From the NCBI RefSeq assembly GCF_018614585.1, contig NZ_JAGGOI010000024.1, positions 1 through 64,000 on the forward strand: a stretch of DNA of 64,000 nucleotides. Reading direction: 5' to 3'. This document shows, piece after piece, positions 17,543 to 30,946 of the stretch; the first letter of the stretch is position 1, and each line of letters starts with the position of its first letter. The translations under genes were made by a program, and so were the position numbers. The notes below the pieces were generated by a model. The model was not told where the DNA came from and did not search any database. It worked only from the letters and a program-made list of their open reading frames with translations. This DNA comes from Streptomyces sp. ISL-1. GTDB lineage: Bacteria > Actinomycetota > Actinomycetes > Streptomycetales > Streptomycetaceae.

Positions 17543-17938
17543 ATGCTCTCCCGCCTGTTTGCCCCCAAGGTGAAGGTCAGCGCCCACTGCGACCTGCCCT
17601 GCGGTGTCTACGACCCGGCCCAGGCCCGCATCGAGGCCGAGTCGGTCAAGGCCGTCCAGGAGAAGTTCCAGGCCAACGAGGACCCGCACTTCCGGGCCCG
17701 CGCCACGGTCATCAAGGAGCAGCGCGCGGAGCTCGCCAAGCACCACGTCTCGGTGCTGTGGAGCGACTACTTCAAGCCGCCGCACTTCGAGAAGTACCCC
17801 GAGCTGCACCAGCTGGTCAACGACGCCCTTAAGGCGCTGTCGGCCGCGAAGGCGTCGACGGACCCGGCGACGGGCCAGAAGGCGCTGGACTACATCGCCC
17901 AGATCGACAAGATCTTCTGGGAGACGAAGAAGGCCTGA
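17543..17938 (+). CDS. sodN: nickel-containing superoxide dismutase
   Basis: 131 residues. A 14-residue leader (MLSRLFAPKVKVSA) precedes the nickel hook HCDLPCGVYDPAQ; after cleavage by SodX, His1, Cys2 and Cys6 bind nickel. The rest is a four-helix protein ending KIFWETKKA. It removes superoxide in the cytosol. ATG 17543 has AGGAAGGA upstream. In S. coelicolor sodN expression needs nickel and its 3' UTR yields a small RNA; here too the stop codon is followed at once by hairpins. Confidence 0.97.
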   Translation: MLSRLFAPKVKVSAHCDLPCGVYDPAQARIEAESVKAVQEKFQANEDPHFRARATVIKEQRAELAKHHVSVLWSDYFKPPHFEKYPELHQLVNDALKALSAAKASTDPATGQKALDYIAQIDKIFWETKKA

Positions 17939-22850: not shown

Positions 22851-23159
22851 TCAGGGCGCCCCCACCTCCGCGCCGGGCCCACCGCCGGGCTCACCACCGC
22901 GTTCACCGCCGGACCCACCGCCGGTCTTCTCGGCGGAATCGTCAGCGGACTTGTCGGCGGACTCCTCAGGGGACTTTTCGCTCTGGCTCACGTCGCTCAG
23001 CGGGCACCGGGGGCTATGGCACGAGCCCGGTTCCCATACAGGGACGTATGCGCCTAGCGTCTTGCGTCGTTTGATGACCGTGCCGACAGGCTCTCCGCAC
23101 GCCGGGCAACGGTACTCGGCCTGCGGGCTGCGGACGGTATCGCGTCCTTCGCTGCCCAT
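22851..23159 (-). CDS. small zinc-ribbon-like protein with disordered tail
   Basis: 102 residues. The first ~55 contain YRCPACGEPVGTVIKRRKTLGAYVPVWEPG and a second Cys pair (CHSPRC), suggesting a zinc ribbon. The remainder is a repetitive Asp/Ser/Lys then Gly/Glu/Pro-rich tail, probably disordered. I recognise it only as a conserved Streptomyces protein. ATG 23159 follows a weak GGGGG ribosome site. Confidence 0.6.
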   Translation of the reverse strand: MGSEGRDTVRSPQAEYRCPACGEPVGTVIKRRKTLGAYVPVWEPGSCHSPRCPLSDVSQSEKSPEESADKSADDSAEKTGGGSGGERGGEPGGGPGAEVGAP

Positions 23160-23993: not shown

Positions 23994-25031
23994 TCAGCGG
24001 GTGCGGCGGGTGACGAATTCGGCCAGCGCCAGCAGGTCGCCCGCCGCCGCGAGGTCCGGGACCGCGCGGGCGAGCTCATGGACGGCGCGGGCCATCCGGT
24101 CCGCGGCCTGGAGCTGTGCCCAGTCGCGGCCGCCCGCCCGGTCGACGGCCTCGGCAGCCAGCCGCACGGCCGCGGGGGTCATCGGGCCGCGGTAGAGCTC
24201 GGCCAGGTCGGCCCCCGCCGGAGTCCCGGAGGTCAGAGCAGCGACCACCGGCAGGGACTTCTTGTGAGCCGCCAGATCGGCGCCTGCCGGCTTTCCCGTA
24301 CGCGCCGGGTCACCCCAGATCCCGATCAGATCGTCGATGAGCTGGAAGGCGAGCCCCGCTTCCCGCCCGAAGGCGTCCATGGCCGCGGCCTCCTCCTCGC
24401 CCCCGCCCGCGTACAGCGCGCCGAGCGCGCAGGCGCAGCCCAGCAGCGCGCCGGTCTTGGCCGTCGCCGTGGCGAGGCACTCGTCGAGGGAGACCTCGTG
24501 CGGCGCGCGCTCCTCCAGGGCGCAGTCCGCCTGCTGTCCCGCGCAGAGCTCGATGACACACGCCGCGAGCCGCTCCGCCGCTGCGGCCGACGCGGGATGC
24601 CGGTCCTCGGCAAGCAGTCGCAGCGCGAGGGCGAGCAGCGCGTCGCCTGTGATGATGGCGTCCGGGGTGCCGAAGACCGTCCAGGCGGTGGGGCGGTGCC
24701 TGCGGGTGGAGTCCTCGTCGATCACGTCGTCGTGGAGGAGCGTGAAGTTGTGCGCCAGTTCCACCGCGGCCGCCGCCCGCACCGCCTGCCGGGAGTCCCC
24801 GCCCAGGGCCCGGGCCGCGGCCAGCACGAGCGCCGGTCTGATGGCCTTGCCCGCCGCGCCGGCCGCCGGGGTGCCGTCGGCGTGCTCCCAGCCGAAGTGG
24901 TACATCGCGACGCGGCGTATGGATCCGGGCAACGACTCGAGGGTGGTGCGCAGTTGGGGATTGACGGCGCTGCGGGTGCGTTCCAGGAGGGCGACGGCCT
25001 CGCCGGCCTCGACGGTGTCCGACATAGTCAT
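23994..25031 (-). CDS. polyprenyl diphosphate synthase, encapsulin cargo enzyme
   Basis: 345 residues, a trans-isoprenyl diphosphate synthase. The first Asp-rich motif is LLHDDVIDED near residues 100-109 and the second QLIDDLIGIWGD near 240-251, with RPALVLAAAR and GKAIRP near residue 60. It makes a C15-C20 chain from IPP units. It lies 118 bases after the Family 2B encapsulin shell gene and is the typical cargo of such compartments. The N-terminal ~25 residues (from MTMSDTVE) are polar and may include the targeting element. ATG 25031 is preceded by GGAAAGG; ATG 25091 is possible and would add 20 residues that also look disordered. Confidence 0.9.
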   Translation of the reverse strand: MTMSDTVEAGEAVALLERTRSAVNPQLRTTLESLPGSIRRVAMYHFGWEHADGTPAAGAAGKAIRPALVLAAARALGGDSRQAVRAAAAVELAHNFTLLHDDVIDEDSTRRHRPTAWTVFGTPDAIITGDALLALALRLLAEDRHPASAAAAERLAACVIELCAGQQADCALEERAPHEVSLDECLATATAKTGALLGCACALGALYAGGGEEEAAAMDAFGREAGLAFQLIDDLIGIWGDPARTGKPAGADLAAHKKSLPVVAALTSGTPAGADLAELYRGPMTPAAVRLAAEAVDRAGGRDWAQLQAADRMARAVHELARAVPDLAAAGDLLALAEFVTRRTR

Positions 25032-25149
25032 CCGGGCGGGCCTTTCCAGGTGTTGGGCACTGACGGGGCCGACCGATGGCCGGCCGGGCATGGGCCGAGC
25101 GGTGCGGCCGGGGCGCGGCGCGGTGCCGCGGGCCCCCGGCGCGTCCGGA

Positions 25150-26574
25150 TCACCGCCAGCGGCTCACCTCGACGTTCTCCAGGACGCCGAGCGCGTCCGG
25201 CACCAGCACCGCCGCCGAGTAGTAGGCCGTGACCAGGTAGGAGATGATCGCCTGCTCGTCGATGCCCATGAAGCGCACGGACAGGCTGGGCTCGATCTCG
25301 TCCGGGATGCCGCTCTGCTGCAGTCCGATGACGCCCTGGTCGGCCTCGCCCGTACGCATGCAGATGATCGAGGTGGTCCTGGCCTCGGTGACCGGGATCT
25401 TGTTGCACGGGAAGATCGGCACACCGCGCCAGGCGGGCAGATGGTGGCCGGCCACCTCCACGCTGTCGGGCACCAGACCGCGCCTGTTGCACTCCCGCCC
25501 GAAGGCTGCGATGGCCCGCGGATGGGCCAGGAACAGCTTCGAACCGCGCCTCCGCGAGAGCAGTTCGTCCATGTCGTCGGGGCTGGGCGCGCCGTCGTGC
25601 GGCTGCAGCCGCTGCCCGTAGTCGCAGTTGTTCAGCAGTCCGAACTCGCGGTTGTTGATGAGCTCGTGCTCCTGGCGTTCCCGCAAAGCCTCGACCGTGA
25701 GCCGCAACTGCTGCTCGGTCTGGTTCATCGGCTGGTTGTAGAGGTCCGCGACACGGCTGTGGACCTTCAGCACCGTCTGGGCCACGCTCAGTTCGTACTC
25801 CCGCGGCGCCCCGTCGTAGTCGACGTAGGTGTGCGGCACGACGGCTTCGCCGACATGGCCCGCGGACAGGTCGATCGCCGCCTCGCCGTACTTGTTGGTC
25901 CGCTGCTGCGGCAGGGACGAAAGACCGGCCAGATGTCCGCGGAGCGAGTCGACACGCTCCGCGAGGTTCAGCACATCATCCCTGGTCAGCACGAGCACCG
26001 TGCATGCGGTCGCGGCACGCGCGGTGTAGTCCCAGGAGGCATCGCGCTCCAGCAGTGCCTGATCGCCGAAGTACGCCCCGTCGGCGAGTACGCCGAGCTC
26101 CGTCTCGTCGCCGTACGGACCGGTGCCGATCTGCTCGACCCTGCCGTGCGCCAGCAGATAGACGCGGTCCGCCGCGCTGCCGGCGGCGGCAAGCACCTCG
26201 CCGGCCCTGAACTCCCGCTGATCGCAACGGTTCGCCAGCTCGGTGAGCACCGCCTCGTCGCCGTACTCCCGCAGGGCGGGCAACTCGCCGAGCTCGGCGG
26301 GGATGACCGCCACCCGGTTGCCGGTCTGCACGAATGTCACGCGACCGTCGCCCACCGAGTAGCTGAGGCGACGGTTCACCCGGTAGGTGCCGCCCTGCAC
26401 CTGCACCCAGGGCAGCATGCGCAGCAGCCACCGAGAGGTGATCTCCTGCATCTGCGGGGCAGATTTGGTGGTTGTGGCAAGGTTTCGCGCGGCGGCCGTA
26501 CCGAGGCTCTGCTGCTTCGAAGCCTGCGCCTCGCGGACCTCGTCGGCCGCAGAACCAACCGAACCAACCGACAT
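25150..26574 (-). CDS. Family 2B encapsulin shell protein with cyclic-nucleotide-binding domain (EshA-like)
   Basis: 474 residues. The N-terminal arm and HK97-like shell fold frame an inserted cNMP-binding domain at about residues 105-215 ([28 protein letters not shown], then [27 protein letters not shown]). The shell part includes [37 protein letters not shown] and the ending [11 protein letters not shown]. Family 2B shells self-assemble into protein compartments that enclose prenyl synthases or terpene cyclases. In Streptomyces the homologue EshA is linked to growth and antibiotic regulation. The neighbouring gene is its probable cargo. Confidence 0.93.
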
Positions 26575-30500: not shown

Positions 30501-30532
30501 CCGAAAGAGCTTGTGCCACCTTGGAGGTGAGG

Positions 30533-30946
30533 GTGTCCCAGATCGCAGGCGAGCCCGGGACTCAGGACTTCGTGGAAGTCCGGCTGCCCGCTGCGGGTGC
30601 CTACCTGTCCGTGCTGCGTACGGCCACGGCAGGCCTCGCAGCCCGCTTGGACTTCACCCTCGACGAGATCGAGGATCTGCGGATCGCGGTCGACGAGGCG
30701 TGCGCGATCCTGCTTCAGCAGGCCGTCCCCGGTTCCGTTCTCAGCTGCGTCTTCCGACTCGTCGACGACTCGCTCGAGGTCACGGTCTCGGCGCCGACGA
30801 CAGACGGCCGGGCGCCGGAGCGTGACACCTTCGCCTGGACAGTGCTCTCGGCACTGGCGGGCAAGGTCGACTCGTCGGTCGCCGATGACCGTACGGTCTC
30901 CATCAGCCTGTACAAACAGCGCGGCGCGGGACCCGGGCCGGCGTGA
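30533..30946 (+). CDS. prsH: anti-sigma factor PrsH/UshX-like (RsbW family ATPase)
   Basis: 137 residues from the GTG at 30533, with GGAGGTGAGG upstream. The GHKL fold is visible: LRIAVDEACAILLQQ holds the Asn/Asp-type N-box region and SCVFRLVDDSLEVTVSAP the next strand. It is a small RsbW-like protein that should bind and hold SigH. The stop overlaps the SigH GTG (GTGA), so the two are coupled. Name follows the S. coelicolor sigH locus. Confidence 0.82.
   Translation: MSQIAGEPGTQDFVEVRLPAAGAYLSVLRTATAGLAARLDFTLDEIEDLRIAVDEACAILLQQAVPGSVLSCVFRLVDDSLEVTVSAPTTDGRAPERDTFAWTVLSALAGKVDSSVADDRTVSISLYKQRGAGPGPA

Follow-up and report, generated by a model that had tools for sequence, protein, structure and literature searches.

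Do the two adjoining minus-strand genes at positions 23,994 to 26,574 of a 64,000-nucleotide stretch of DNA from Streptomyces sp. ISL-1 (contig NZ_JAGGOI010000024.1, positions 1 to 64,000; hereafter the window) specify an encapsulin nanocompartment with a prenyl diphosphate synthase as its cargo, and, if they do, how does the enzyme get into the shell? A sequence-only reading of the locus had proposed a Family 2B encapsulin, gated by a nucleotide signal, that houses a synthase for terpenoid precursors. Our follow-up leads us to regard the locus, with a probability of roughly 0.75, as a standard Streptomyces Family 2B encapsulin-polyprenyl transferase (PT) operon, probably the EshB locus, whose products would form a nanocompartment containing a C20 synthase. 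Such shell-PT systems are already known. The available text of Andreas & Giessen 2021 (PMC8346489) counts 900 PT-type Family 2B operons, 888 of them in Actinobacteria, and the window has in common with these a shell with a cyclic-nucleotide-binding-like (cNMP-like) domain and an adjoining polyprenyl transferase. The locus is widely conserved and adds an ordinary member to a catalogued system, and it is the loading mechanism that makes it of interest.

The shell gene and the adjoining synthase gene

The two genes and the elements needed to describe them are the following.

25150..26574, minus strand: Family 2B encapsulin shell gene, probable EshB ortholog (474 amino acids, stop codon included in the coordinates; PF19307 and PF00027, NF041163, 9bhu)
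25912..26274, minus strand: cNMP-binding-like domain in the shell protein, about residues 101-221 (PF00027; phosphate loop non-canonical, residues counted in 36 sequences)
23994..25031, minus strand: polyprenyl (probably geranylgeranyl) diphosphate synthase gene (345 amino acids, stop codon included in the coordinates; start ATG 25031; NF041169, Shine-Dalgarno sequence, structural model, 3nf2)
25041..25046, minus strand: Shine-Dalgarno sequence GAAAGG of the synthase gene, 9 nt upstream of ATG 25031

The shell protein carries both hallmarks of a Family 2B shell, a SrpI-like HK97-fold domain (PF19307, residues 222-471, E 3e-138) and, ahead of this match, an inserted cNMP-binding-like domain (PF00027, residues 120-207, E 4.1e-19). 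The NCBIfam model NF041163 (encap_f2b) covers residues 23-472 and scores 776.9 bits against a cut-off of 400. The closest solved chain is 9bhu (E 2.1e-203), which we take to be the shell of the 2-methylisoborneol (2-MIB) encapsulin. The shell gene comes first and the PT gene second. The latter encodes a polyprenyl synthetase (PF00348, E 5e-57) located beside a Family 2B shell, as required of a Family 2 PT cargo, and matches NF041169 (f2_encap_cargo4, "family 2 encapsulin cargo polyprenyl transferase") with 487.4 bits against a cut-off of 450. In these respects the Pfam and NCBIfam matches, together with 9bhu, bear out the sequence-only reading, which had named an HK97-like shell with a cyclic-nucleotide-binding domain, assigned it to Family 2B and seen a prenyl synthase behind it.

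The arrangement is very constant. Among the best 80 of at least 580 homologous loci, all titled Streptomyces, the PT gene lies next to the shell gene on the same strand in 76, two of which (L038, L092) are cut by a contig end; of the other four, L026 and L079 break off no more than 184 nt from the shell, while L019 and L055 have no PT there. A separate sample comprised 119 genomes of the order, 104 of them from the genus and the window's genome included. The SrpI-like shell family is matched in at least 115 of the 119; within the genus, at least 83 of 104 genomes, that of the window among them, have a PT match with an E-value no higher than 1.6e-139. The shell gene is situated directly upstream on the same strand for all 83 genus PT orthologs listed (65 by coordinates, 18 by fetched DNA). 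For 13 weaker or non-genus PT matches it adjoins in five by coordinates and in G021 by DNA, and is absent at G007:C445. This adjacency test covered 96 PT matches, with one match each of G005, G104, G030, G080 and G020 and those below 2.4e-84 omitted; 26 of the PT matches came without a listed shell, and of the 20 for which DNA was fetched 19 have it, G007:C445 being the exception, while six were left unfetched. The constancy of the gene pair makes a functional link likely. At one locus of the order sample (G082:C2, L102:748-2164) the shell match is split into two frames near its end, through either a sequencing error or damage to the gene.

Gene order points to the identity of the shell gene. 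The pair is located between a SigB/F-type sigma factor gene (NCBIfam) and a gene for a Ni superoxide dismutase at 17543-17932 of the window (PF09055, E 1.5e-44). In S. coelicolor, sigH is SCO5243 and sodN is SCO5254 according to the available text of PMC2631018, and eshB, described in that of PMC3878966 as encoding a putative cyclic-nucleotide-binding protein paralogous to EshA, is SCO5249. Because the flanks of the window locus match sigH and sodN around SCO5249, its shell protein is probably EshB. Across the 64 homologous loci with full flanks a gene for a pyridoxal enzyme was found upstream in every case; the anti-sigma gene was recovered in 56 of them and that for the sigma factor in 51.

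Start, fold and probable product of the synthase

The sequence-only reading had the synthase gene and its place right but took ATG 25091 as the start, giving 365 instead of 345 amino acids. We rejected this long form and place the start at 25031, because a Shine-Dalgarno sequence stands at 25041-25046 and none is found at 25091. The identical motif with identical spacing precedes the TTG start of the synthase gene in L015. In the relatives, moreover, synthase starts are spread over all three reading frames relative to the shell stop (21, 20 and 33 of 74), as expected of non-coding DNA, and this also counts against a long N-terminus.

The structural model of the synthase has a mean predicted local distance difference test score (pLDDT) of 94.1. 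Residues 1-10 average 56 and the next ten 93, so that order begins no later than about residue 11 and extends to residue 340. An N-terminal helix fills the stretch left unannotated by Pfam and aligns with 3nf2, a polyprenyl synthetase of S. coelicolor and the closest solved structure, which has the same fold along almost the entire chain (template modelling score 0.90). Its sequence is 42% identical to the window synthase, compared with 59-90% for 40 aligned orthologs (trimmed sequences). The available text of PMC8346489 ascribes to Family 2B PTs an N-terminal domain of 50-100 disordered residues. In contrast, the N-terminus of the window synthase is an enzyme-fold helix preceded by some ten low-confidence residues; given the start at 25031 and a model ordered from about residue 11, the enzyme lacks such a domain.

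Much the same holds for most relatives. In 74 of 76 scored, the median distance from the synthase start to the LL landmark of the first conserved helix is 17 residues, and by eye no common motif was seen in these N-termini. The length nevertheless varies within the family, as L083 (273 residues before the landmark) and L090 (73 residues) show. Longer scored N-termini in L029, L032, L036 and L046, where the start overlaps the shell stop, are probably scoring errors, because each also offers a start further on that is preceded by AAGGAG or GAAAG. The exceptional N-terminus of L083, 273 residues long by the Shine-Dalgarno rule and beginning 68 nt after the shell stop, is rich in Gly, Pro, Ala and Ser. 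Those of L016, L017 and L065 share, by eye, a Pro-rich start K-T-x-x-V-P-Q-P-P-T-P-R.

The catalytic motifs are intact.

24711..24731, minus strand: first aspartate-rich motif DDVIDED, residues 101-107 (D101, D102 and D105 in 95/95 orthologs)
24321..24335, minus strand: second aspartate-rich motif DDLIG, residues 233-237 (D233, D234 and G237 in 95/95 orthologs)

The 95 sequences consist of the window, 74 of the best 80 loci (L038 and L092 were dropped as incomplete) and 20 fetched stretches, one of which, L121 (G007:C445), has no shell. All were trimmed: those of the best 80 loci begin ten residues ahead of the landmark, and in the others no more than 99 residues were kept ahead of the first motif. 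In this enzyme class, an aromatic residue five positions ahead of the first aspartate-rich motif goes along with a C20 product. Phe96 occupies that position in 95/95 orthologs and also in 23/23 paralogs. With both motifs and this aromatic residue in place, the enzyme has the make-up of a geranylgeranyl diphosphate (GGPP) synthase, and by the chain-length rule C20 GGPP is the most likely product. The nearest equivalog model, GGPP synthase IdsB (NF045549), gives 357.6 bits, below its cut-off of 475.

Cargo or cytosolic partner

For the synthase as shell cargo, a plausible assignment, adjacency and the match to a cargo family speak on one side and the absence of the disordered N-terminal region reported for 2B PTs on the other; the corresponding claim of the sequence-only reading thus stands in part. 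By analogy with published homologues, the shell protein would assemble into a T=1 particle of about 28 nm, with the cNMP-like domains on the exterior above the two-fold pores. A short-chain synthase, most likely producing C20 (GGPP), would work inside or on this shell, and its product would supply a pathway whose genes lie elsewhere in the genome. The cNMP-like domain would probably tune pore opening, either through a ligand other than cyclic AMP or cyclic GMP (cAMP, cGMP) or without any ligand. The analysis itself establishes what the two genes are, their adjacency and conservation, the intact catalytic motifs and the lack of a long disordered N-terminal domain; assembly, encapsulation, product and a developmental role are what we infer for the locus.

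Several points weigh against this picture. The synthase is devoid of the N-terminal domain ascribed to 2B PTs. The AlphaFold model of the shell protein is poor except for the cNMP-like domain (mean pLDDT 51.5), so the case for shell assembly is one of homology. The shell is likened to EshB of S. coelicolor by its position between sigH and sodN, by synteny and not by sequence. Adjacency in the order sample was followed from PT ortholog to shell, which leaves 21 genus genomes with no listed PT ortholog outside the count. L019 (7416-8700) has lost about 1.9 kb holding the PT while its shell gene is open, as seen against L025 (91.7% identical over 6,072 nt); the L019 genome contains one encapsulin match as well as two matches to the PT, with identities of 44% and 37%. 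The shell of L055 is followed by other DNA, and a PT of 73% identity lies on another contig, 133 bases from its beginning, which may reflect rearrangement or assembly. No experiment on this shell-PT pair was found in the literature on encapsulins, EshA, EshB, SCO5249 and SCO5250; SCO5249 does appear in an expression table of PMC3610822. The available text of PMC6428758 reports eshA of S. venezuelae, which shares an operon with the 2-MIB genes, as not required for 2-MIB biosynthesis; a shell may therefore be dispensable for its pathway.

Some of these observations would be equally at home if the synthase were a cytosolic operon partner, co-transcribed with the shell gene and working outside the shell. 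An enzyme ordered from about residue 11 to 340, whose N-terminal helix aligns with 3nf2 and whose relatives have short N-termini (median 17), fits such a role, as do the loss of the PT from L019, where the shell gene is open, and the reported dispensability of eshA for 2-MIB synthesis. We nevertheless consider it unlikely, if deserving of serious attention, given that the shell adjoins every one of the 83 genus PT orthologs listed and six of the 13 weaker or non-genus ones, and that 49 positions of the synthase are conserved to at least 93% in the 95 orthologs and to at most 10% in the 23 paralogs. A more tentative proposal, which we regard as doubtful, retains the synthase as cargo and dispenses with the disordered loading domain: docking would proceed by a folded surface or by the invariant C-terminal Thr-Arg-Arg tail, giving Family 2B a second loading mode, and a conserved patch of Trp181, Thr184 and Arg186 in the inserted domain of the shell protein would bind a ligand other than a cyclic nucleotide. 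Thr341 and Arg342 occur in 95/95 orthologs and in 0/23 and 2/23 paralogs, respectively, while Arg343 is present in all members of both sets. In enzymes of this class a basic C-terminal tail can close off the active site, so the tail as a docking tag is only a lead.

With the standard encapsulin-PT operon as the preferred explanation, the question becomes sharper: a widespread PT encapsulin of Streptomyces seems to be without the tail thought to load its cargo. Either the synthase is not cargo or 2B shells load cargo by a second route. The loss of the PT in L019 and the variable N-termini of the relatives offer ready comparisons.

The cNMP-like domain, a second shell locus and further neighbours

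Gating of the shell by cAMP or cGMP through the cNMP-like domain, as put forward by the sequence-only reading, is unsupported and was rejected on two grounds, published non-binding and the residues of the loop. The PF00027 match is clear, as its E-value of 4.1e-19 indicates. However, the Family 2B insertion domain has been shown to bind no cyclic nucleotide and to have divergent binding-site residues, as stated in the available text of PMC12407261, which cites a preprint. In a pairwise alignment the phosphate-loop Arg-Ser of a cGMP-dependent kinase corresponds to Ala-Ser at shell residues 179-180 of the window protein. All 36 aligned shell proteins have Ala or Thr at position 179; residue 180 is mostly Val, Thr or Ile, and Arg in only 2/36, namely the paralog on contig C33 and the order-level L120. 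Neither the kinase alignment nor the 36 shell proteins thus reveal a canonical phosphate-binding loop with its Arg. What is conserved instead is a W-x-x-T-x-R pattern formed by Trp181 (36/36), Thr184 (36/36) and Arg186 (35/36), and this Arg is conserved yet misplaced relative to the column in which the kinase Arg aligns. Gating by cAMP or cGMP is accordingly very improbable, and the pattern suggests that a function of another kind was kept.

The sequence-only reading had also noted that no terpene cyclase or methyltransferase lies beside the pair and that the system may differ from those for 2-MIB, and both statements proved correct. A Pfam scan of six neighbour proteins detected neither enzyme. 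The one cyclase family searched, PF19086 (Terpene_syn_C_2), has three matches in the genome, on contigs C42, C33 and C55, and none on the contig of the window. C33 harbours a separate 2-MIB set of EshA type, i.e., a second shell gene followed by genes for a terpene cyclase that belongs to the encapsulin cargo family and for a geranyl diphosphate 2-C-methyltransferase (NCBIfam). Its shell belongs to the same family, while its cargo is a cyclase accompanied by the methyltransferase, in contrast to the prenyl diphosphate synthase without cyclase in the window. The two shell proteins are 72.7% identical over the HK97 parts (242/333) and 50.4% over the cNMP-like domain (61/121). These values are near the averages of 70.3-74.6% and 48.5-51.9% published for two-component 2B shells, one pair of which co-assembles (available text of PMC12407261), and the shells of the two loci might likewise form mixed shells in which cargoes share compartments. 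We judge this improbable: the published pairs are encoded together, while here the genes reside on different contigs. The genome contains six polyprenyl synthetase matches. Another terpene cyclase-polyprenyl synthetase pair is present at G000:C55:99817-101555, on a contig with no SrpI-like shell match.

Two further genes near the locus deserve mention. An RsbW-like anti-sigma gene at 30521-30946 of the window (plus strand) adjoins the SigB/F-type sigma gene, and its median identity in the 56 of 64 loci that contain it is 97.9%, as opposed to 80.9% for the sigma gene. Downstream of the synthase gene, at 22998-23159 (minus strand), lies a small Cys-rich open reading frame (CPACG...) with no Pfam match, which recurs on the same strand in 26 of the 64 full loci, L019 included, and may be a third member of the operon.
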